The notes under the pieces are model-generated. The model was not told the DNA's origin, did not search any database, and worked only from the letters and a program-made list of their open reading frames with translations. The translations under genes were made by a program, and so were the position numbers. A stretch of DNA of 47,579 nt from Verrucomicrobiales bacterium (GTDB taxonomy: Bacteria; Verrucomicrobiota; Verrucomicrobiia; Verrucomicrobiales; V1-33): positions 1 through 47,579 of the forward strand of contig JAQGPJ010000101.1 of the NCBI GenBank assembly GCA_028293125.1, in the 5' to 3' direction. The stretch's first letter is position 1, and each line of letters opens with the position of its first letter. Positions 176 through 44,162 of this stretch are shown here, one piece after another.

Positions 176-878
176 GAAGTGGGTTGACGTTGAAGGGGGC
201 ATTACCTTAAATCTTAAATTGCTTGGGCATTCTCTTAAGGGGGAATCCAGCCGCGGGAGGACCCCGGGGTCCTATCGAACAAAAAATCCCCACCCGCAGA
301 GAAAAGTGGCATAGCTGACAAAGCGGATCAAAAAGGACCACTTTGAAGTTATGCCAGCTTCATCCAGCCTGCAAACGCAAAACAAGAGCCCGGAAACGAC
401 GAAATAGTCATTCAGTCGGATGGGTCCTGATGGAAAGGGGATAAAGCTGCGCCAAGCCAGTTTGAAGGACGGGAGGGCCCCGCGTGGTTCACATCAGGCT
501 GCGGATCGGACCGGAAACCCCGGACCGGGAAATCTGTTGAAACCGTGATGGAAATAAATCCGATGTCGTCGGCGTTTTCCGTGACTCGAATCCGCCATAC
601 CGTTGCCTGACGTTTGCGCATTATGGTTTCCGCCCCGCCTGCTCAGCCGATGTTTCGGGCCTCATGCTTCGACCACGCATGCCGTGAGCCGTTTTTTGTT
701 GCAGGGTCGTTATTCCAGTCGAACCATCCACGCCGGACAAGGCGCTGGCGCCAGCCATCGGGGCCTCCCTGATGTTGCTCCTTTTATGATTCACACCTGC
801 ACCGCCGTTTCCACGCCACCCGCCGCCCCGGCGGTCAACACAGCTTGATCGTTCGGGTTATTCAAATTCCCATGGCAA
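176..878. other. Non-coding stretch, nothing recognised
   Basis: About 700 bases with only short overlapping frames in both directions and no convincing codon pattern. The sequence just upstream of the secreted-protein start contains TTAAATCTTAAATTG, an AT-rich patch that could hold its promoter. Two imperfect inverted repeats near 303-355 overlap one another and have no T-run, so they were not called as a terminator. Confidence 0.4.
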
Positions 879-1253
879 ATGGAACCAAAGAAAAAATCCT
901 CCAAATGGCCTTCATGGTTAACATGTTTATCCGCGGCCGGCGGGTTTATGCTCAGCTGTCTAATCGCCATTCATTTCAGCTATTCAGGATCTGTTGCCGC
1001 AGGGTCCGGCCCCGGAGGCTGGAACTTTCATCTGATATTTGTTCACCCCGCCACCTTTGCTATCGTCACCATTGCATCATGCTTCAGCGTTGCAATTGCC
1101 GTGGTATCGCAAGTCCACCTTTTTTCTTCGCTTTCTCATTGCATTGGAAGGCATCTGCGCGGGATCTTTTTTAATAAGTTTTATGCTATTTCGATTTATC
1201 AATTCCCACCAGGGATTGTCGAAATTGATCACCAGAGGTTGTCAGCGGTGTAA
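879..1253 (+). pseudogene. Small membrane protein, probably frameshifted
   Basis: The frame from the ATG at 879 gives a basic start (MEPKKKSSKWPSW), a first hydrophobic helix (about residues 14-33) and a second (about 57-76), then turns into sequence that does not look like protein. From about base 1100 the next frame carries KSTFFLRFLIALEGICAG and SFLISFMLFRFINSH, a convincing third membrane helix, ending near 1290. The simplest reading is one three-helix integral membrane protein interrupted by a single-base frameshift near 1100. The function is unknown and no family was recognised. The alternative is a chance overlap of hydrophobic frames. Confidence 0.35.
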
Positions 1254-1683
1254 ATGGCGGCCATCACCATGCAAAAGAAGGCGAAAAGAGTGACAGGCCG
1301 CGCGCCGGCCCAAATGAGCAAGGAGAGGACAGCTCCAAGCGCGTTTTTCATGAGGGTGGCTTTCGCATTCCGGAGAACGGTCCGGCTGTGGCCGCTGGCG
1401 GCGGCGGTGTCAGTGCCCCTTGGCGAGGAAGTGACCGGGATTGCATGAGCGGGAGGGATAACATGGGGATGGAGAGTGAAAAATACGGATACTTCATGTC
1501 GGAAACAGCCGTTTCCTGTGAACAAACCGCAGAAAACGCGGTCCAACTCCGGCAGCAGCCGGCAAGGCGCGCTGACAGGATTCCGCTCCTCATGGCCTCT
1601 CGTCGTGTCGCATCGAATCGCACCGCGCTCTATCCAATTCAGCCGAACTCAACTCAGCCAACCAACTCAGCAGTCCTTGATTT
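1254..1683. other. Non-coding stretch before the concanavalin-like gene
   Basis: No convincing gene. A 40-codon minus-strand frame (1229-1351) with two hydrophobic runs is the only candidate and is too weak to call. The 60 bases before the next start contain CAACTCAGCCAACCAACTCAG but no clear promoter or Shine-Dalgarno site. Confidence 0.35.
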
Positions 1684-2487
1684 ATGAGCAGAATCTATCT
1701 TCCCACTCTTTTGGCGGCGGCGGTCTCATTCCAGGCGGCGGCGCTGGTTCGGGCCTTGGCGGAGGACGCGCCGAAAGCTCCTGCGGAGGCACCGGTTCCT
1801 GTTCCTGTTCCCTTTACTGCACCGGCTGCACCGGCTCCGGCCAGTGACGCGGCGACCACCAAAGCGCCGGGCTTCACCATCGAGGGCTGGGGGAAAGTCA
1901 CGGATCCGGGCGGGGACTGCGGGGTCACCCTGCAGGGCAAGGTGCTGAAAATCACGGTCCCGCCCACCGGGCCGCACGATCTGGCTCCCGAGATCGGGGT
2001 GACCAATGCCCCGCGCGTGCTGCAGGCGGTGGAGGGTGATTTCAGCATCCGCGTGAAGGTCGGGGGCGGCTACCAGCCGGGCGGCGAAACCACCTCCAAC
2101 GAGCGTGTGGCCTACAACGGCGCGGCCCTGATCGTGATGGCGGATCCCGAAAACGTGATCACTCTGGCCCGCGCAGTGATGCAGCGGGGAGCCTTGGAGC
2201 CCACGCCGTATGCGAATTTTGAGATCCGCTCGCAGGGCCGGCTGCTGGACATGGGATCGGCCGCCACCAAACCGCTGACGGTGGACGGCCCCCTGTGGCT
2301 GAGGCTGGAGCGGCGCGGCTCCCAAGTGACCGGCGCCGTGAGCGCGGACGGCGAAAAATGGGACGCCTTGGAACCCAAGGAAATCCCCGGCACCTGGCCC
2401 AAAACCTTGCACACCGGGGTGGCGGGGATCAGCACCTCGGCCAAGGCGTTCGAACCCGCGTTCTCGGAGCTGCGTCTGGAGAAGTAA
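1684..2487 (+). CDS. Secreted DUF1349-like (concanavalin-fold) protein
   Basis: The protein has 267 residues. Residues 1-26 form a signal peptide (hydrophobic TLLAAAVSFQAAALVRALA). Residues 27-60 form a Pro/Ala/Val-rich linker (PVPVPVP, coded by a hexamer repeat CCTGTT). From about residue 62 to the end there is one beta-rich globular domain. It carries features of the DUF1349 concanavalin-like fold: G-DFSIRVKV early, a middle stretch with YNGAALIVMADPENVITLAR, and a C-terminal LWLRLERRGSQVTGAVSADG segment ending in AFEPAFSELRLEK. Such domains are usually single exported sugar- or polymer-associated modules of unproven activity. No catalytic residues can be assigned. The gene is monocistronic as far as can be seen, and its start is fixed by the signal peptide. 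Confidence 0.75.
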   Translation: MSRIYLPTLLAAAVSFQAAALVRALAEDAPKAPAEAPVPVPVPFTAPAAPAPASDAATTKAPGFTIEGWGKVTDPGGDCGVTLQGKVLKITVPPTGPHDLAPEIGVTNAPRVLQAVEGDFSIRVKVGGGYQPGGETTSNERVAYNGAALIVMADPENVITLARAVMQRGALEPTPYANFEIRSQGRLLDMGSAATKPLTVDGPLWLRLERRGSQVTGAVSADGEKWDALEPKEIPGTWPKTLHTGVAGISTSAKAFEPAFSELRLEK

Positions 2488-2573
2488 CCCTCCCGAACCG
2501 TTAACGGCAGCCGGAAGGGCACCGCCGCCTGCCGACCGCTGTCCGCTGCCCGGTCTGAGCGGACCGACGGGGT

Positions 2574-2616
<43 letters not shown>

Positions 2617-2743
2617 TGCCGGTGCCCTGGCTTTTCGGAGGTTTGCGCCGTGAGTTCAGGGGGTGGATGCATTTTTTGAAATAAATTTTGCCATCCTCAG
2701 CCGTATAGGACATTCTCCTATGGGCATCCCCTCCTTTTTTGGA

Positions 2744-2842
2744 ATGTCTGATTCAGGCACCATGGAAAGGCGGGTTGCTCTCAGGAAACCCGATCCACGC
2801 CAAAAAGAGGTTCCCGCAGTCCGTGGAGCCTGAATCAGACAT
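2744..2842. repeat. Long-armed inverted repeat
   Basis: The 15-base arm ATGTCTGATTCAGGC (2744-2758) has an exact reverse complement at 2828-2842, and the pairing continues inward for about seven more bases with two mismatches. The 55-70 base interior holds no gene. It lies in a gap of about 660 bases (2488-3148) that otherwise shows nothing. It could be a long hairpin at RNA level or the ends of a small decayed mobile element; there is no T-run. Confidence 0.6.
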
Positions 2843-3148
2843 CTCAAGGGTTGGCTTCCCCGGCACACAAGTTGCCGCGGCAGGGCTCCGCCCGGCAGCC
2901 GGGCCGGATGCTGAATCCATCCAGGGATTTGTGGAAGCGGTGTGAAAAAACTTTGGCAGCACCTCCCCTCACCTGTCATGGCCGGCAGGCGGTTTTCTGA
3001 AATGCCAAGCGCCTCTTTTCGCCTGCGTCCGTGAGGTGACCGCCTTCATTGCCGGCTCCTCCACTGGCAAATCTCCGGCCCTGCATGACAGCGGGCCTTG
3101 GGAAAATTTTCGGACTTGTCTGCTTCACTTTGTGCCACAAAGTGATCC

Positions 3149-3751
3149 GTGGACCCATCCTTTTCCTTTCTCCGGAATTTTTACTACTGGGCGTTTCATG
3201 TGACGCTGAACGCGGTTCCGAGTTTTCTGATTCTGCTGGACACAGGCAGGGACCGGATGCCTCCCCTGCGGATTCTGGCGATTGTGTGCGCCGTCGCCTG
3301 CTTCATTGGGGCCTATACCTTTGCAACCGCCCGTCCCTGGCTCCGCCACAGAGTCGGATCCGGCCTGTTTGGCAGGGCGTTCCGGTGGGCCACCAATGCC
3401 AGGGCTGTTATCTCGGGGCTGGCCATCATGGCCTTGGTCACCAAAATCCCCCAGCTTGGTAATCTGATATGGATCGAAGTGATGGCCGGGCTGATGGCCA
3501 CAGGGATTGTGACAAACCTGGGAAGGATAGGATGGGTGCGGGAACTGCGGATTGCAATGCTGGGTCCGGACCCTGTGCAGCGCGCCCAGTCGGTTTGGAT
3601 CGGCGGCATGGAATCCTTCGTTCCGACCTTCCTGACCACCCTCACGGAGGGTGTTATCCTGTCAGGTGTGATGGTGGGGATCGCCCTGATCCTTTATGCC
3701 ATCCTCAGGCTGAAGCATCGATACTGGCAGAAAATGGCCACCCCGGAGTGA
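3149..3751 (+). CDS. Integral membrane protein, unknown function
   Basis: The protein has 200 residues with about four to five hydrophobic helices, roughly at 8-30, 39-60, 86-105, 106-127 and 168-190. The frame opens right after a TGA, with GTG (3149) as the first possible start. An ATG at 3257 would drop the first helix and give 164 residues. Neither start has a strong Shine-Dalgarno site. The C-terminus after the last helix is short and basic (LRLKHRYWQKM). No domain family was recognised. The neighbours do not help: an inverted-repeat region lies upstream and an IS3 remnant downstream. Confidence 0.6.
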   Translation: MDPSFSFLRNFYYWAFHVTLNAVPSFLILLDTGRDRMPPLRILAIVCAVACFIGAYTFATARPWLRHRVGSGLFGRAFRWATNARAVISGLAIMALVTKIPQLGNLIWIEVMAGLMATGIVTNLGRIGWVRELRIAMLGPDPVQRAQSVWIGGMESFVPTFLTTLTEGVILSGVMVGIALILYAILRLKHRYWQKMATPE

Positions 3752-3936
3752 TGACGAGGAGAGCGCTGCTGGGGTCTTCGGTCAATCCAGCCGCCTTGCC
3801 GTCAGCATTTCCGGTTCAGCCGTTTTATGCTGTGAACAGACACCCGCGTTCCGCTGCCCTGATGGCCAGCTGCTGGGCGCGCCTTTTCCGTTCACCCTTG
3901 GATTCGATTCTGCTGAAGCTGACAACACAATGAGCG

Positions 3937-4206
3937 AAGCCTCTGAAGCCGCCTGCGGTTGATGGACACACCGTGATCGCGTTCCAGCACCGTCACCGGA
4001 CGACGGCTGCCGAGGCAGGGATCGATCAGATGGATACCGTCCAACAGACGCTTGATCCGGTTGTCCTCCGCGCTCTCCGCCACGGCTTCGCAGTCCACCG
4101 TCGAGCGCGCCACTCCGAGCAGTTCGCATTGTTTTCCCATGCTCAGTTTAGGATGTGTTTTTTCAACCAACCCGGCCCGCTCCCTCACAGACCGGGTTGT
4201 TTGGAC
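3937..4206 (-). pseudogene. IS3-family transposase OrfB, 5' fragment
   Basis: About 90 residues match the beginning of IS3 OrfB: the ERAGLVEKTHPKLSMGKQCE segment, then LLGVARSTVD, a 'LIDPCLGSRRPVT' version of the usual 'P.YGSRRM', and INRRRLQRLRSL. Homology stops after that. The integrase catalytic core (DDE) that should follow is absent, replaced by unrelated sequence down to about 3750. It is a dead remnant. Confidence 0.7.
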
Positions 4207-4481
4207 TTTTTTGTCAGGTAATCCAGAGCCACGGCCTGCTCTCCGGTCTTCGCGTGGAGCCGCGGGCGCTCCGCTTCGAAGTCCTCCGATTTGGCCCTGC
4301 CTCCACCCGGTCCGAAAACTCCGGGCGCACCGACGGCCATGGTCTTTTTCCACTCGGAAACCTGCACCGGATGAATGTCGAAACCGTGGGCGGTTTGTTG
4401 GATGGTTTTGATGCCCTTGAGCGCTTCAAGCGCCACGCGGGCTTTGAATTCGGGACCGTGTCTTCTGCGTTTTGCCTTCAT
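4185..4481 (-). CDS. IS3-family transposase OrfA
   Basis: The product has 98 residues from the ATG at 4481 (MKAKRRRHGPEFKARVALEA). It carries the helix-turn-helix of IS3 OrfA, typified by the K/R-rich start, 'EFKARVALEAL', 'TIQQTAHGFDIHPVQVSEWKK' and the Leu-rich tail. It ends YLTKKSKQPGL, where OrfB would normally take over in the -1 frame. A longer start at 4532 adds 17 residues that do not match the family. The product alone could bind DNA but cannot transpose, because its partner is truncated. Confidence 0.75.
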   Translation of the reverse strand: MKAKRRRHGPEFKARVALEALKGIKTIQQTAHGFDIHPVQVSEWKKTMAVGAPGVFGPGGGRAKSEDFEAERPRLHAKTGEQAVALDYLTKKSKQPGL

Positions 4482-4575
4482 GGGATGTGTGTTTGGTTCG
4501 GTGTAACGTCCGCACCTCCACACCACAATCATAGCTTAGCTCCCGGCCCGATTTCCGGGGTCCACCTCACAGCCC

Positions 4576-5247
4576 TCAGGCGCTCCGGGTCAGCATACTG
4601 GCCTGCCCGGCTGGGAAAGCATTCCCGGCGGGCCCGGCGCGCCGGCTTATAAACTCCACCGTCTCCCTGCCACCGCTCCAGTGCATCAGGATGGCTTCGA
4701 GCCGCTGGTCTTTGGGCAGCGGCAGCGGGCGGAGCTCGTTTCTGGCATAAATCCGCAGCGGAGTGCTGTGCAGGCCCGTGGGCTGAAGCGTGACCGGGCT
4801 GGGATAACCGGCATCCGCCAGCGCGTCCCGCAGCCTCAGAAGCCGTCTTTGCTCCTTCCTGTATGCCTCCAGCACACGCCGCAGGAGGGCAACGGAGGCG
4901 GACGGCACCCTGAATCCCTCCGGCAGGGCATCGGCGATAACTTTCCGCGATTCAGGGGGAAGGCTTTCAAAGGGCAGGATCACGATCCAGTCGGGGACCG
5001 GATTCAGATTCCAGCACAGGCCAGGATCTCCCTTCCAGGTTTGGGAGCCGGTCCGGATATGAATCTGCCCCCGTCGGAATTCACAGCGTTCGGAGGGATC
5101 CTCATCATCGGACACCTTTGAGCCTGTGTCGAAGGTCAGCGGGTCGCACATCGCAAACCCCTTTTCCGTCAGCACCGCCGGGCAGCCGCCGCCGGCTGCG
5201 TCGATGCTGCAGACCGGTTCGCCAATGATGGAATTGAGATAGTACAT
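4576..5247 (-). CDS. Hypothetical protein
   Basis: The protein has 223 residues from the ATG at 5247 (MYYLNSIIGEPVCSIDAAGG); an in-frame ATG at 5376 would add 43 residues of less protein-like sequence. It is soluble, with no signal peptide and no membrane helix. Visible features are a Cys in 'PVCSID', an acidic patch (SDDEDPSE), a W/P-rich middle (CWNLNPVPDWIVILPFESLPP) and a helical Arg-rich stretch (LLRRVLEAYRKEQRRLLRLR). The C-terminus (RAGPAGNAFPAGQASMLTRSA) looks run-on and may not be the original end, since the IS3 remnant begins under 100 bases away. No family was recognised. Confidence 0.5.
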   Translation of the reverse strand: MYYLNSIIGEPVCSIDAAGGGCPAVLTEKGFAMCDPLTFDTGSKVSDDEDPSERCEFRRGQIHIRTGSQTWKGDPGLCWNLNPVPDWIVILPFESLPPESRKVIADALPEGFRVPSASVALLRRVLEAYRKEQRRLLRLRDALADAGYPSPVTLQPTGLHSTPLRIYARNELRPLPLPKDQRLEAILMHWSGGRETVEFISRRAGPAGNAFPAGQASMLTRSA

Positions 5248-5379
5248 CCTTAAAAATTTGTTATTTTTCCAGATAACGGTGAAAAGGGTTGATCCTGACG
5301 CCGCATGATGGTGATTTTCATGGATGGGGAAATGGCTAAGCATCATTGATGCCATCGACACAGCACGCAGGGTCACAAA

Positions 5380-5570
5380 ACACCTAAAATGTTGATATTG
5401 ATATTGTTGCCTGAGGAAAAAATATTTAAATCAATTGATTCAGAGCGATGTTTTGCCTGTACATTTGCGCGAATCTGTAAATTATTCCGACAGTATGAAT
5501 TTGCAGAAATATTTAAAATCTTGCCCGCGAAGAATTTTCGGAAAATGAGGTCGCATCCCCTTCCGAAAGA
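5380..5570. other. AT-rich island
   Basis: A stretch visibly richer in A and T than anything nearby, with two copies of AATATTTAAA (5421-5430 and 5508-5517) and no credible gene. It sits between the divergent hypothetical gene and the nuclease fragment. It could hold promoters for the former or be a foreign or decayed segment. Confidence 0.5.
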
Positions 5571-36010: not shown

Positions 36011-36894
36011 GGGATCGATTGGGGGGTTGAGTTGGATCGCTGGGCCCGATGGCTCCTAGCCCTGTCGGGAGTGCTGGATTGACGAGGTGCTCCGCATACC
36101 ATCCTCTGGTGAAATAAGGATCCGCAGCGTTGGAGGAGTAAATAATTCAGACCGGCTGTGCCAAACCGCCGCCTAGAGATTTATAATGATAACCAACAGG
36201 CCGGGATGATGGATGCCCAAAAATCCTGAACTGCAGGATGGATTTTCAAAAGCACCGCGGGACGCTTTCCAAAGTTCTTCTGGGAAATCGCCTTGACGGC
36301 CGGGCGGGCCCCGTACGGAGCTTTACAAAAAGCCTGTATTGGGGGCATGGCAAAGGCGTTTTCCACCTGATGCCGGATTTCAGCAGCAGGACAAAAGTGA
36401 TTATTTCCCTCCCGCCATGCCGCAGAGGCGGCCTTCTGATTGCGCATTGAATTAAAATTTTAAAAAATTACGGGACAGTCGATCATCAGCAGTGACAAGT
36501 TGTTGAGAAGGAAGCCCGAAGGAAACTGGATCTCAGCCAGGCAGGAGCCGCCAAAACATGGGGGAGTGCCGCTTAACACGCTGATCTGCTGGGAAAACAA
36601 CCGGCGCAATCCCTCCGCCTTCACACGGGCAATGCTCAATCATCTTCTGAATGGCATCCTCGGCCGGACACATCCTCGCCCGGCACCAGTATTCCGGAGA
36701 GGAGCCCTGACATTTGCCCGGCAGCAGCCCGCTCCTGCCAAAAGGCGCTCAAATTCCTCCAAAGATAAATTTCCACCAAGATGGTGGCCACCAGTTCAAA
36801 GACGCAGAATATTCGAAAGATCATAAGGTTCTGCCCGCGGAGAGAGGCCCGTCAATTTTTGCGGCTTCGGCTCTCCGCAAAGCGTTACACAGGC
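36011..36894. other. About 880 bases without a supported gene, upstream of ku
   Basis: No ORF with coherent composition. A minus-strand 62-codon frame (36636-36824) starts with a hydrophobic helix (IFCVFELVATILVEIYL) divergently to ku, but it ends in random-looking sequence. An AT-rich patch near 36446-36470 (AATTAAAATTTTAAAAAATT) is a candidate promoter region. Confidence 0.35.
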
Positions 36895-37746
36895 ATGAGA
36901 CCCATCTGGAAAGGCTCCGTCAGCTTCGGCTTGGTGAACATTCCAATCACACTCTTTCCGGCGACGAAACGGGAGGAGCTGAAGTTCCATCAGCTGCGGG
37001 ATTCGGACCTCAGCCCCATCAACTACAAACGCGTGGCCGAGGCCGATGGAAAAGAGGTGCCTTGGGAGAATATTGTGAAGGGCTACGAGTATGAAAAGGG
37101 CAAATACGTGGTGCTCAAGCCCGAGGATTTCGAGAGGGTGGATATTGAGGCCACGCAGTCGGTGGTGATCCAAGCCTTCGTGAGTCTGGATGAGGTGAAC
37201 CCGCTGCTTTTTTACAAACCGTATTTCATGGAGCCTCAGAAGGGGGCTGACCATGCCTATGTCCTGCTGCGGGAGGCATTGGAGGCGTCGGGGAAGATCG
37301 GGATTTCAAAGGTCGTCATCAAGACGCGGGAGTATCTGGCGGCGGTCAAGCCGCAGGGGGACGGCCTCATGCTGGAGCTGATGCACTTCGCGGAGGAGCT
37401 GCTGGAGCTTTCGGAATTCCGCGTTCCCAGACAGACCACTGCCGGCAGGAGGGAGATGGCCATGGCCAAGGATCTGATTGCCAGCATGACGGAGAAATGG
37501 GATCCCGACGCTTGGAAGGATGAGTATCATGAGGATTTGGAAAAGATGGTCCAGGAGAAAATCAAACAGGGGGACAAAAGACCCGCCGCCAAAGCCAAAG
37601 CCAGGCCCGCCACGAAGATTATCGATCTTCTTTCCGTCCTGCAGGAGAGCCTCAAGACGGGCAAGTCCCCCCAGAAGACTCCCGACAAAAAGGTTGCCGC
37701 CAAAAAAACCAAGGCTAAAACGGCTGCAAAGCGGAAGGCTGGCTGA
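36895..37746 (+). CDS. ku: Ku homodimeric DNA end-binding protein (NHEJ)
   Basis: Ku slides onto broken double-stranded DNA ends and recruits LigD. The product has 283 residues from the ATG at 36895 (MRPIWKGSVSFGLVNIPITL), the classical bacterial Ku start; the frame is open 38 codons further up, without conservation. Landmarks are KFHQLRDSDLSPINYKRVAE, GYEYEKGKYVVLKPEDFERV, PLLFYKPYFMEPQKGADHAY, VVIKTREYLAAVKPQGDGLM and LELMHFAEELLELSEFRVP. Residues from about 225 on form the bacterial C-terminal extension, ending in a Lys/Ala-rich tail (KKVAAKKTKAKTAAKRKAG) that in other Ku proteins tunes DNA sliding and ligase stimulation. ligD follows 76 bases downstream. Confidence 0.96.
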   Translation: MRPIWKGSVSFGLVNIPITLFPATKREELKFHQLRDSDLSPINYKRVAEADGKEVPWENIVKGYEYEKGKYVVLKPEDFERVDIEATQSVVIQAFVSLDEVNPLLFYKPYFMEPQKGADHAYVLLREALEASGKIGISKVVIKTREYLAAVKPQGDGLMLELMHFAEELLELSEFRVPRQTTAGRREMAMAKDLIASMTEKWDPDAWKDEYHEDLEKMVQEKIKQGDKRPAAKAKARPATKIIDLLSVLQESLKTGKSPQKTPDKKVAAKKTKAKTAAKRKAG

Positions 37747-37822
37747 AGCCACCGGCCCCCGCCGCATCTGAATGCGGACAGTTAAGGACACCGGCATTCA
37801 CCCAAGCGCCCAGCCCTGACGG

Positions 37823-40384
37823 ATGTCAAAGAAGCAATCAGTCACGGTGGACGGCAGGGAGCTGGTCCTGTCGAATCTGGACAAGGTCCTTTTTCCGGAG
37901 TGCGGATTCACCAAGGGGGAGGTGATTGGCTATTACTCCGCCGCCGCGGAGACCATTCTGCCGCACCTCGCGGGCCGCCCGCTGACCCTGAAACGCTTCC
38001 CCGACGGCGTCGCGGGGGAATTTTTTTATGAAAGGAATGCGCCGTCTCATACTCCGGACTGGGTGGAGCGGTTCACCGCCACCCGCAGCGGCGGGGAGGC
38101 GGTCACCGATTATATTCTTTGCAATGACCGCGCCACACTGCTCTGGGCCACCAATCTGGGGGATATCGAAAAACACGTCCTTCCGGCCCGGGTCCCCGAT
38201 CTGGACTGTCCGACCTCCATGGTGTTCGACCTCGACCCCGGAGAGCCCGCCACCCTCCTCGACTGCTGCCGCACCGGGCTGCATCTGAAGGGCCTGTTTG
38301 AAACCTTGGGCCTGGAATGTTTTCCCAAGGTTTCGGGCTCCAGGGGACTGCACCTGACTGTGCCCCTGAACACGCCCGCAAGTTACGGGGTTGTCCAGCC
38401 CTTCGCTGAAACCGTGGCCCGGCTGGTCACGCAGCAGCTTCCGGAAAGCGTGGTCAGCGATATGGCCAAAACTCTCCGGCGCGGGAAAGTCCTCATCGAC
38501 TGGAGCCAGAACTCGGACTTCAAAACCACGGTATGTGTCTACGCCATGAGGGCCAAACACGGGGAGCCGTTCATCTCCATGCCGGTCACATGGGAGGAGG
38601 TGGCCCGCGCCGCCAAAAGCGGAAAAACCAAAGGCCTTCTCTTCACACCCAAAGCGGCCATCGCCCGGATCGGCCGCATGGGTGACCTCTTCGGGCCGGT
38701 GCTCATCCTCCGTCAGGAACTGCCCGAAGCCTTTACTGCCGCCCTCGGCGCCGCACCCCTGAAGAAGCCGCGCGGAGCCAAAAGGGTAAAGGATAAAAGC
38801 CTCCGGGAATACGAATCCAAACGCGACCATGCGCGGACACCGGAGCCGGAGGCGGAAACCACGCCCCCGGACAGGATCGCAGGCCGGGGAGCCCACCGTT
38901 TCGTCATTCAAAAGCACGAGGCCAGCCACACCCACTATGATTTCCGTCTGGAAATGGAGGGAGTGCTCCGTTCATGGGCGGTGCCCAAGGGACCGCCCGC
39001 TGAACTGAGGCAGACGCGGCTGGCCATGCATGTGGAAGATCATCCTCTGGCGTATGAGAACTTTGAGGGAACCATCCCCAAGGGCAATTATGGGGCCGGA
39101 ACGGTGATGGTCTGGGACCGGGGGACCTATGAGGACCAGACCGGCGACCCGGCGGGGGCTTTTCATGCCGGAAAGCTGCACCTGACCCTTACTGGAAAGA
39201 AGCTGAACGGGGAGTGGATCCTCGTGAAGGACCGGCGGGACGGGGAGGGAAACCGCTGGCTGCTGATCAAGGCCGGGGAATCCATGGCTCCGCTCTCCGC
39301 CAAACAGGATGACACCTCCGTGATCAGTGGCCGGTCCATGCGCCGGATCGCGGTTGACGGTGATGCCCAGTGGGAGAGCGGCGGTGTCGTTCAGAGTCCG
39401 CCGCCGAAGAAGCGGACGGCGCGGAAAAAGGCCCCATCCCCCAGCTTTATCGAACCCATGCAGTGCCAACCGGTGACCGCCCTGCCGGAGGGGGAGGAGT
39501 GGACCTATGAGGTCAAGTTTGATGGATACCGCTGTCTGGCCGTTAAAACCGGACGCCGCGCCAGTCTCATCTCAAGGAATGGGAAATCCCTCAATGTGCG
39601 CTTTCCGGCCTTGGTGAAAGCCATCCGTGCCCTTGAGGGCGGGTTCATGATCGACGGGGAGGTGGTGGCGTTGGACGCGGAGGGCCGTCCCTCATTCCAG
39701 CTGCTTCAGAACAGTCGCGGAAAGCATGCGGCAGTCTTTTTCTATGCTTTCGACCTGCCGCATGCCAACGGCCAGCCCTTGGCGGAGCTGACGCTTTCCG
39801 AGCGCCGCGCGCGGCTGGAGGCATTTCTTGGGATCCCCGATGATCCTGTCCGGCTTTCCGCGATCCTGCCCGGCAAGGCGGCACAGGTTCTCCAAGCGGT
39901 CCGGCAGCTCGGTCTTGAGGGAGTAGTGGCGAAACGGCTGAACTCGGTTTATGAGGCGGGGGAGCGCACCGGGGCCTGGGTCAAGTGCCGGACGAGCCCC
40001 GGACAGGAATTTGTGATTGGCGGATACGTGCCTGGAGCGCGCGGGTTTGACTCCCTTCTGATCGGAGTGTTTGAGGGCCGGGAACTGATGTACTGCGCCA
40101 AGCTGCGCAATGGATTTGTCCCCCGCGTCCGGGAGGAGATTTTCGCCCGGCTTCAAACGCTAGGCACTGCCGAATGCCCTTTCGCAAATCTTCCGGAGCC
40201 TAGGAGCGCCGCCGCTGAGACTGTCCGCATGACCGCCGCAAAAATGAGGGAGTGCCGGTGGGTGAGACCGGAGCTGGTCTGCCAGGCCGCCTTCGCCTCA
40301 TGGACAGACCGTGGACGGTTGCGCCACGTCAGCTTTGCAGGCTTGCGGGACGACAAGCCCGCCAAAGCGGTGGTCAGGGAATGA
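37823..40384 (+). CDS. ligD: Multifunctional NHEJ DNA ligase LigD
   Basis: The product has 853 residues, with domains in the order polymerase-phosphoesterase-ligase, as in Mycobacterium LigD and unlike the PE-LIG-POL order of Pseudomonas. The POL domain (about 1-300) contains the catalytic FDLDP (Asp136, Asp138) and KVSGSRGLHLTVPL. The PE domain (about 355-500) contains KHEASHTHYDFRLE (His365, His371, Asp373, Arg375) and AMHVEDHPLAY (His403), the residues that trim 3' ends. The ATP-dependent LIG domain (about 540-853) has the adenylated Lys565 in YEVKFDGYR, then DGEVVALDAEGRPSF, EGVVAKRLNSVYEAGERTGA and WVKCRTSPGQEFVIGGY. It fills, trims and seals ends brought together by Ku. The linkers at 312-350 and 524-540 are Lys/Pro-rich. 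Confidence 0.97.
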   Translation: MSKKQSVTVDGRELVLSNLDKVLFPECGFTKGEVIGYYSAAAETILPHLAGRPLTLKRFPDGVAGEFFYERNAPSHTPDWVERFTATRSGGEAVTDYILCNDRATLLWATNLGDIEKHVLPARVPDLDCPTSMVFDLDPGEPATLLDCCRTGLHLKGLFETLGLECFPKVSGSRGLHLTVPLNTPASYGVVQPFAETVARLVTQQLPESVVSDMAKTLRRGKVLIDWSQNSDFKTTVCVYAMRAKHGEPFISMPVTWEEVARAAKSGKTKGLLFTPKAAIARIGRMGDLFGPVLILRQELPEAFTAALGAAPLKKPRGAKRVKDKSLREYESKRDHARTPEPEAETTPPDRIAGRGAHRFVIQKHEASHTHYDFRLEMEGVLRSWAVPKGPPAELRQTRLAMHVEDHPLAYENFEGTIPKGNYGAGTVMVWDRGTYEDQTGDPAGAFHAGKLHLTLTGKKLNGEWILVKDRRDGEGNRWLLIKAGESMAPLSAKQDDTSVISGRSMRRIAVDGDAQWESGGVVQSPPPKKRTARKKAPSPSFIEPMQCQPVTALPEGEEWTYEVKFDGYRCLAVKTGRRASLISRNGKSLNVRFPALVKAIRALEGGFMIDGEVVALDAEGRPSFQLLQNSRGKHAAVFFYAFDLPHANGQPLAELTLSERRARLEAFLGIPDDPVRLSAILPGKAAQVLQAVRQLGLEGVVAKRLNSVYEAGERTGAWVKCRTSPGQEFVIGGYVPGARGFDSLLIGVFEGRELMYCAKLRNGFVPRVREEIFARLQTLGTAECPFANLPEPRSAAAETVRMTAAKMRECRWVRPELVCQAAFASWTDRGRLRHVSFAGLRDDKPAKAVVRE

Positions 40385-40916: not shown

Positions 40917-41537
40917 TCACTTCACAGATGGCTTATGATTGAGAACCTGATCTTTGGTGCTGGCCGCGATGGCCATGACCTGATCAATAAGTTCCTTTTT
41001 AATCTTAAGTTCCTCGAGGGTTTTCTGAAGATGCTCCGCCACAGCGTTGAAGTGAACCTCACTCAGGCCAGGAATGTTCTCATGCGCCTCGCGCAGATTT
41101 TTGCCTGTCCATGGCAACGGGCCTCCGAAGGCGGCGGAGAGAAACTCATTCTGTTTCCGGCGCTGTTTGTTCATGTTGATGTCCTCGAAGAAGCCGTTGA
41201 TGCGGTCATCAGCCAGAACTTTCACATAAAATAGATCGATGGCGGCGTTCATGGCCGCTTTGCCTCCAAGTTTTTGATACAGGCTGTTGGCCCGGTCCGC
41301 ATTCCACTTAGTGCGGCTGGCCTCATCAGCGAACGCGTAAGTCCGGTCCTCATAGATGACCGTGATTTTAGGATCGGCAGGTTTTCCCGTAACCGGGCAG
41401 ATGGTGTTAATGGCGGGCTTTTCAACCTTTGGGGAATTCACTGCGGGAACATTGGAGGAGGTATCCGCAGCGGTGCTGGCGAGGGGTGCGAGACTAAGGA
41501 CGAAACAGGGGATGATAAGGATTGAGATGCGGTTCAT
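40917..41537 (-). CDS. Secreted YHS-like / truncated hemoglobin (TrHbN) fusion
   Basis: The product has 206 residues from the ATG at 41537. The longer frame (to 41606) would run through the NsrR operator, so this start is preferred. Residues 1-23 are a signal peptide (ISILIIPCFVLSLAPLASTAA). Residues about 44-84 resemble a YHS-type metal domain (TICPVTGKPADPKITVIYED and RTYAFADEASRTKW, with one Cys). Residues 86-200 form a group 1 truncated globin: LYQKLGGKAAMNAAIDLFYV (B9-B10 Phe-Tyr at 103-104), DDRINGFFEDINM, FLSAAFGGPLPWTGKNL and REAHENIPGLSEVHFNAVAE with proximal His152. TrHbN proteins with Tyr-B10 typically oxidise NO to nitrate. Export of such a globin is unusual. It is divergent from nsrR. 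Confidence 0.85.
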   Translation of the reverse strand: MNRISILIIPCFVLSLAPLASTAADTSSNVPAVNSPKVEKPAINTICPVTGKPADPKITVIYEDRTYAFADEASRTKWNADRANSLYQKLGGKAAMNAAIDLFYVKVLADDRINGFFEDINMNKQRRKQNEFLSAAFGGPLPWTGKNLREAHENIPGLSEVHFNAVAEHLQKTLEELKIKKELIDQVMAIAASTKDQVLNHKPSVK

Positions 41538-41586
41538 GTGGTTGGTTCTGATGGCGCAGGCCGATGAGAAGAGAGACAATGCTTTA

Positions 41587-41609
41587 AAGATGCATTTCCA
41601 ATACATCTT
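41587..41609. promoter_or_regulatory. NsrR-type operator
   Basis: AAGATGCATTT (41587-41597), one spacer base, then CAATACATCTT (41599-41609): an 11-1-11 inverted repeat with nine of eleven paired positions. This is the layout and sequence of the known NsrR consensus (arms of AAGATGYATTT type). It sits 50 bases before the globin start and about 100 bases before nsrR, so it can govern the globin promoter and perhaps autoregulate nsrR. Confidence 0.8.
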
Positions 41610-41653
41610 TCAGAAAACCGCATTCTGAGCGGTCGCACTGCCGAGCTTGCAAT

Positions 41654-41692
41654 CGCCGGGGTTCCGCCTGAATGGGGCGGAGAACCCCGGCG
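41654..41692 (+). promoter_or_regulatory. Strong leader hairpin in front of nsrR
   Basis: CGCCGGGGTTCCGCC (41654-41668) pairs with GGCGGA plus ACCCCGGCG (41676-41692) across a 7-base loop, with a 2-base bulge on the 3' side. The 15-bp GC-rich stem ends 13 bases before the nsrR ATG, inside the probable 5' untranslated region. No T-run follows, so it is not a terminator. It could limit ribosome access or stabilise the transcript (inference). Confidence 0.7.
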
Positions 41693-41705
41693 GCAACCCC
41701 TGCGA

Positions 41706-42194
41706 ATGAAATTAAGCCTTTTCAGCGATTACTCGCTTCGCGTCCTGATGTACGCCGCGTTGAAAGGCGCTCCTTTCCAGCTGGATGAGGTGACGGACGC
41801 TTATACGATTTCGCGCCATCATCTGGGTAAAGTGGTGAACCGGCTTGCCCGGCTCGGATATCTGGACACCCAGCGGGGGCGGGGCGGAGGCATCCGCCTC
41901 TCACTGGACCCGGCCTCAATCCGGATTGGCCAGCTCCTGCGCAAAACAGAGGATCAGCCCGTTTTCGTGGAATGCTTTGATCCTGCGGCCAACCGCTGCC
42001 CGGTGGCCGGAAGCTGCCGTCTTAAAGGCTTTCTTGCGGAGGCCATTTTGGACTTCTACCGAAGTCTTGACCGGCACTCTTTAAAGGATCTGGTGGAAGG
42101 GCCACACCTCGAAGCGATGCGTCTGACCTTATTGGGCAGCACCCCGTCCCCGGCCATAGGGGAAGTTCATCCCGGGGAATCACCGCCGCCGTGA
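41706..42194 (+). CDS. nsrR: NsrR-type Rrf2 iron-sulfur repressor
   Basis: The product has 162 residues. The N-terminal winged helix (MKLSLFSDYSLRVLMYAALK, ISRHHLGKVVNRLARLGYLD, TQRGRGGGIRLSLDPASIRI) has the Rrf2 signature, including the 'RGRGGG' wing and the HHLxKVVNRL recognition helix found in NsrR proteins. The cluster-binding loop EC-FDPAANRC-PVAGSC carries Cys90, Cys98 and Cys104 with C-x7-C-x5-C spacing, as in NO-sensing NsrR. NsrR holds an iron-sulfur cluster that NO destroys, which releases target promoters. The divergent globin gene and its operator support this identity over IscR or RsrR. The gene is convergent with the antiporter gene, with nine bases between stops. Confidence 0.88.
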   Translation: MKLSLFSDYSLRVLMYAALKGAPFQLDEVTDAYTISRHHLGKVVNRLARLGYLDTQRGRGGGIRLSLDPASIRIGQLLRKTEDQPVFVECFDPAANRCPVAGSCRLKGFLAEAILDFYRSLDRHSLKDLVEGPHLEAMRLTLLGSTPSPAIGEVHPGESPPP

Positions 42195-43622: not shown

Positions 43623-44162
43623 TCAAGGCACCTTTGGCGGGGGCGCGCTTTGAATGGGGACGCGGATTTCGAGCGCGGCAAAGCGGTCCTCCAGGCTCTG
43701 CCGGTCCTTGACGTGGCACTTGAGGCATTCGTTCCGAAGGATGATCGTGCCCGCAAACCGCAGCATTCCGTTTTCCACGGCCATAACCTCCTTTTGCCCC
43801 TCTGTGATTTTCAGAATCGCCGCCTTCTGAAATTCGTCCTTGGCCTTGTTATCGACATTCATGACGGTCGCGTCGGCGGCCAGCCAGCGGAGGGTGATAC
43901 CCCATTCCTGCTGCATCACTTTGAAAACATCCTCCAGTGATTCCGAAGGAATAACCCGGCTCTCATTTTTTCTGAAAAAGTCGCGGTGCATCACACTCAG
44001 GGCTCCGCTGAAGGAGGTGTGGAGAAGCCGTGCCCGCGTTTTGGCCTCCTTCAGTGCCGGAAGTGGTTTTGCCGCCGGGGCCGGCTCCTGAGACTGTCCC
44101 GTCGGGACGGCAACCACGGAGGCAAATAGAAGAATAACGGGCAGTTTGTTCAGAACGGGCAT
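43623..44162 (-). CDS. Tll0287-like (DUF3365) c-type haem protein
   Basis: The product has 179 residues from the ATG at 44162 (MPVLNKLPVILLFASVVAVP), chosen because it begins a signal peptide. The domain matches DUF3365: SFSGALSVMHRDFFRKNESR, EWGITLRWLAADATVMNVDN, KAKDEFQKAAILKITEG, GMLRFAGTIILRNECLKCH. The single haem-binding motif is C146-L-K-C149-H150. Such periplasmic domains bind one c-haem and are sensors or small electron carriers, often in front of kinases; here the domain stands alone. It begins 19 bases after the flavoprotein stop on the same strand and is surely co-transcribed with it. Confidence 0.85.
   Translation of the reverse strand: MPVLNKLPVILLFASVVAVPTGQSQEPAPAAKPLPALKEAKTRARLLHTSFSGALSVMHRDFFRKNESRVIPSESLEDVFKVMQQEWGITLRWLAADATVMNVDNKAKDEFQKAAILKITEGQKEVMAVENGMLRFAGTIILRNECLKCHVKDRQSLEDRFAALEIRVPIQSAPPPKVP

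Follow-up and report, generated by a model that had tools for sequence, protein, structure and literature searches.

Well-studied globin NO dioxygenases are cytoplasmic and are served by NAD(P)H-linked reductases. The mycobacterial TrHbN (HbN) is likewise cytoplasmic and carries Leu at position E7, where the globin described here has Gln. As an NO dioxygenase it shares with our globin the fold and the Tyr-B10 and Gln-E11 pocket; unlike our globin, it has no YHS domain and is not under NsrR. A group 1 truncated haemoglobin under NsrR is found in Legionella (PMC1274295; reviewed in PMC3820574), and in cable bacteria truncated haemoglobins associated with c-type heme are exported (PMC11976967). 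In the published literature, mostly freely accessible journals, we came across neither a YHS-globin fusion nor an exported globin controlled by NsrR, nor any NsrR regulon described for Verrucomicrobiota.

Here we analyse a 47,579-nucleotide stretch of DNA from a Verrucomicrobiales bacterium (the window), in which a globin gene and an Rrf2 regulator gene diverge from a shared operator (Table 1). On sequence evidence, the globin is probably NO-inducible, NsrR-controlled and extracytoplasmic, and would detoxify NO in the periplasm or envelope. The gene, its leader, the globin pocket, the operator, the clade of the regulator, their conservation and the neighbouring genes are direct observations. 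Elsewhere in the window, at 36781-40384, inspection by eye shows a Ku-like gene and, after it, one resembling LigD, as for the joining of double-strand breaks.

Table 1. Features of the globin locus, in window coordinates
Feature	Position	Strand	Details
Exported YHS-TrHbN globin gene	40917..41537	-	206 aa; open reading frame, Pfam Bac_globin, sequence and fold
Group 1 truncated haemoglobin domain	40941..41285	-	aa 85-199; Tyr104 (B10), Gln125 (E7), Gln129 (E11), His152 (F8)
Degenerate YHS/TRASH-type front domain	41286..41408	-	aa 44-84; Cys47 the sole Cys left
Predicted Sec signal peptide	41466..41537	-	about aa 1-24, MNRISILIIPCFVLSLAPLASTAA; read from sequence
NsrR-type operator	41587..41609		AAGATGCATTTCCAATACATCTT; match to gATGyAT-N5-ATrCATc (PMC1274295)
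nsrR-like Rrf2 regulator	41706..42194	+	162 aa; Cys90-X7-Cys98-X5-Cys104; divergent from globin
Tll0287-like c-heme (CLKCH) exported protein	43623..44162	-	PF11845; two genes beyond nsrR

The original prediction placed a signal peptide, a YHS-like domain and a group 1 truncated globin in one gene, and all three are present at the coordinates of Table 1. The globin part is identified by Pfam (Bac_globin, E=1.7e-17), and group 1 truncated haemoglobins are its closest solved relatives both by sequence and by fold. It has the 2-on-2 globin fold, His-F8 and Tyr-B10 of a TrHbN, and Phe-B9, Tyr-B10, Gln-E7, Gln-E11 and His-F8 are constant in 63/63 aligned relatives; the B10, E7, E11 and F8 names come from alignment to known TrHbN and are labels that we take to apply here. 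An AlphaFold2 model built from 63 sequences is confident over both the YHS and the globin parts, with pLDDT block means of 94-98 from about aa 40 onwards, the C-terminal tail excepted. An alternative start at 41606, where the frame is also open, was rejected, as the operator would fall inside the gene; the start at 41537 is preferred because, in relatives where the start can be assigned, it directly precedes a hydrophobic leader.

The N-terminus of the window globin is hydrophobic, and model confidence is low over aa 1-26, which fits a leader. Scored simply for hydrophobicity and inspected by eye, almost every exported relative retains a leader resembling a signal peptide, as expected if the globin does not start downstream of it; a few have an unclear start (cut by the frame or the contig), and four were put in the exported group by hand. 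In three Opitutae copies (L148:4953-5468, L150:4953-5468 and L152:1076-1591) a lipobox (LTGC) replaces the leader, giving a lipoprotein-like protein, and the front domain is trimmed at its start. The description of the window globin as secreted is best read as a prediction that it is periplasmic or envelope-bound.

The front domain belongs to the YHS family by profile: PF04945 matches 35/42 homologous front domains (best E=7e-9), the window protein's own front domain giving no match to YHS in Pfam. Modelled alone, it reaches a pLDDT of 95 and comes closest in fold to L24e treble clefs and to a YHS-like segment in the alpha subunits of toluene monooxygenases, with none of the matches significant (best E 0.09). 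It differs from the family in having a globin fused behind it and in having lost most of the metal-type cysteine set. Among 63 aligned sequences the cysteines decay, with Cys at position 47 in 54/63, at position 70 in 15/63 and at position 74 in 38/63. Because Cys47 is the only YHS cysteine remaining in the window protein, a metal site there is unlikely, and we rejected a metal role for this part of the window protein. The YHS part is absent from a few exported relatives (L070-L075 and L179), of which L070-L075 are exported and have the operator without any YHS part. The earlier suggestion of a metal or redox contact through the YHS-like part is therefore not borne out.

Relatives were collected from 289 same-order genomes and by scanning 84,980 species genomes, with duplicates removed. 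This yielded 100 non-redundant exported relatives, most with the YHS front, and 13 cytoplasmic TrHbN; the same fusion thus occurs in other Verrucomicrobia, where the original prediction had suggested looking for it. By record title the exported relatives fall in Verrucomicrobiales, Chthoniobacterales, Opitutae and Limisphaerales, and all are apparently Verrucomicrobiota. A few metagenome-assembled genomes (MAGs) with titles such as 'Klebsiella pneumoniae', 'Proteobacteria bacterium' or 'Akkermansia muciniphila' look mislabelled, because their proteins sit among Verrucomicrobiota. A Methylocystis plasmid match (query 46-201), considered as a fusion outside the phylum, is a plain cytoplasmic TrHbN whose upstream frame has no YHS-like sequence. 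Viral contigs yielded no relative, and the globin is absent from four same-genus MAGs that are 68-89% complete. Six genomes of a Prosthecobacter-type group (G082, G105, G102, G148, G036 and G048) have two or three exported copies each.

The operator that the original prediction described, an NsrR-type 11-1-11 inverted repeat before the globin gene, is indeed present and begins 49 bases ahead of the globin ATG. Of its 11 pairs 9 are matched, and its core, GATGCAT-N5-ATACATC, fits exactly the published NsrR consensus (PMC1274295). Against an NsrR-type 23-mer consensus it scores 21/22 on both strands, and the runner-up in the window reaches 16/22. A scan of the 6.5-Mb genome allowing up to three mismatches returned this operator, the only strong copy, and two matches with three mismatches, which were set aside because both overlap long open frames. 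A scan around the operator found no sigma-70 promoter. Between the operator and nsrR, a GC-rich inverted repeat with perfectly matched 11-bp arms (CGCCGGGGTTC / GAACCCCGGCG) occupies 41654-41692.

The divergent gene encodes an Rrf2 winged-helix protein (PF02082, E=5e-26) whose best solved relative in the PDB is S. coelicolor NsrR; its three cysteines, originally described as spaced as in NsrR, align to the Cys triad of that protein. The C-X7-C-X5-C spacing is common to nearly all full-length NsrR-like relatives. In a maximum-likelihood tree with long branches among the outgroup rows, and with RsrR and RirA sequences not included, the regulator, E. coli NsrR, S. coelicolor NsrR and 43 Rrf2 proteins of globin neighbourhoods form one group (support 100/95), outside which fall E. 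coli IscR and the window genome's two other Rrf2 proteins. Grouping with IscR, which would have spoken against the original prediction, was thus not seen. NsrR is also the best NCBIfam model, at 105 bits; because the equivalog cut-off is 182 bits, we call the protein NsrR-clade by sequence and not a proven NsrR.

We searched 320 bp upstream of each globin for a site scoring at least 17/22, and 1.5 kb upstream for an NsrR-like gene. Such a site is present at 67% of the 42 exported relatives whose upstream stretch holds an NsrR-like gene (0.02% in shuffles), at 22% of the 54 with none in reach (0.04% in shuffles), and at 0/13 cytoplasmic TrHbN. Compared across loci, the arrangement of operator and regulator is well beyond chance; because only 22% of loci without a nearby NsrR-like gene reach 17/22, either NsrR does not control every locus or some sites have diverged. 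Conservation of the operator upstream of orthologs, the grouping with NsrR and the kept leaders all speak for what had been proposed, a compact unit responding to NO whose globin is extracytoplasmic.

An NsrR homologue with 51-66% identity to that of the window was found in 16/18 genomes searched, nearly all of which have no nsrR beside the globin. In 13 of these 16, all Prosthecobacter-type genomes in which nsrR is unlinked to the globin, nsrR has its own site, AACATGCAYnnnnnRTGCAAGTT, 49-50 bp upstream; a fourteenth genome, G105, has a similar nsrR-side site, AAGATGCACCGGGAGTGCAAGTT. Globin-side sites of the group read AACATGCAYnnnnnATGCAACTT or AACATGCATnnnnnATGCAACAT. The regulator's own site and the target sites drift in the same way, and these sequences therefore give good evidence that the unlinked NsrR acts in trans in this group. 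Next after the unlinked nsrR comes a gene whose exported product, roughly 450 aa long, has a CLSCH heme-c motif and matches no Pfam family above cut-off (L190:1961-3307, plus strand; likewise at this position in other Prosthecobacter-type loci).

Three gene layouts recur at globin loci. In the window type nsrR is directly divergent. In Prosthecobacter-type genomes a group III globin is divergent, followed in some by genes that Pfam identifies as NirK-cytochrome c, an FGE/SCO1 protein and NnrS; at L137 (genome G045), for example, trHbP (group III), NirK-cytochrome c, an FGE/SCO1 fusion and NnrS occupy 213-4857 on the minus strand, divergent from the globin at 4893-5486 on the plus strand. Many relatives of this locus have two operator-like sites between the group III globin run and the exported globin. 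In another family a Tll0287-like c-heme protein is divergent, with nsrR next in 6/8 and the Tll0287-like gene alone in 2/8. The window too has a Tll0287-like gene, two genes beyond nsrR, and of the genome's two such proteins its product is the closer to those beside the globin elsewhere (46% identity). It is a possible redox partner of the globin, and its membership in the unit is tentative.

Exported globins also keep company with NO metabolism. Across the 289 same-order genomes, and with shared ancestry ignored, NnrS is found in 46/62 genomes with an exported globin vs 47/227 without (p=1e-14), and NirK in 19/62 vs 14/227 (p=1e-6). Within 6 kb of the exported globin lie NnrS in 17 genomes and NirK in 6, most of these adjacent cases coming from one genus-level group (g11). 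The window genome itself has no NirK over cut-off and no NnrS. None of its four haem-copper oxidase matches was recognised as an NO reductase: one, read in detail, is cbb3-type, and the other three score like ordinary oxidases. The window unit holds no dedicated reductase gene.

We suggest that NsrR, with its cluster in place, occupies the shared operator as long as NO is absent and keeps the globin gene repressed; NO would damage the cluster and release NsrR, allowing the globin to be synthesised and exported, with heme b inserted outside the cytoplasm. In that compartment Tyr-B10, Gln-E7 and Gln-E11 would hold bound O2, and NO would be oxidised to nitrate in an NO dioxygenase reaction. The periplasm has no NAD(P)H reductases, so an exported c-type cytochrome, for example the Tll0287-like protein, would probably re-reduce the ferric heme. 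In relatives with NirK the globin would handle home-made periplasmic NO; the window genome has neither NirK nor NnrS, and its globin would therefore meet NO from neighbours. NO as the signal, export itself, the exact location, heme loading, the dioxygenase chemistry, the electron donor and the role of the YHS part are what we infer here.

Other roles for the globin deserve weighing. With an obvious reductase missing from the unit and the globin repeatedly paired with heme-c proteins, it might act as an NO scavenger, buffer or carrier and not as a dioxygenase that turns over, binding NO at ferrous or ferric heme and holding it or passing it to NirK-linked or Tll0287-type heme proteins. According to a 2026 preprint, stand-alone members of the Tll0287 family look like redox proteins and those fused to signalling modules bind NO (PMC12889525), the latter lending this role some support. 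Against it stands the invariance of the Tyr-B10/Gln-E7/Gln-E11 pocket, typical of O2-holding TrHbN, and we consider such a role unlikely.

The c-heme partners near the exported globin would suit a role in handling or reducing O2 in the periplasm when oxygen is low, the Rrf2 regulator then answering low O2 or redox state and not NO, and O2 reduction has been proposed for the exported truncated haemoglobins of cable bacteria, which are fused to multiheme cytochromes (PMC11976967). The operator and regulator are of the NO type, however, and the exported globin is associated with NnrS and NirK, which makes an O2 role improbable. The nirK adjoining the globin in some genomes could also suggest an anaerobic nitrite or NO reductase in the periplasm; but those genomes already own NirK, and many bearers of the globin, the window genome included, are without it, leaving this explanation very improbable. 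We therefore retain NO dioxygenation by an NsrR-controlled exported globin as the probable function. A broader proposal is more doubtful and is offered tentatively: that Verrucomicrobiota carry out extracytoplasmic NO dioxygenation where NirK makes NO, by an NsrR-induced exported globin that relies on c-type cytochromes dedicated to it in the periplasm, and not on an NAD(P)H reductase.

Verrucomicrobiota are common in soil and water, and an exported, NO-switched globin spread through the phylum would put NO removal at the cell boundary; an exported heme-b globin also raises the question of how heme and electrons reach it. The nearest counterpart in control is glbN-lpg2536 of Legionella pneumophila, where NsrR is predicted to have no other target: here a group 1 truncated haemoglobin, the cyanoglobin, is paired with a ferredoxin reductase (PMC1274295), in contrast to the window unit, which has no dedicated reductase. 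Compared by description and not by sequence, glbN comes from a gammaproteobacterium, and no export leader or YHS part is mentioned for it. The nearest counterpart in export is the truncated haemoglobin-pentaheme fusion of cable bacteria (lPHCtX), described without NsrR or YHS (PMC11976967), in which the truncated haemoglobin is joined to its multiheme cytochrome in one protein. The exported YHS fusion is undescribed in the literature we found; NsrR-controlled TrHbN in Legionella and exported truncated haemoglobins in cable bacteria are already known, and the unit described here would extend NsrR control to Verrucomicrobiota.
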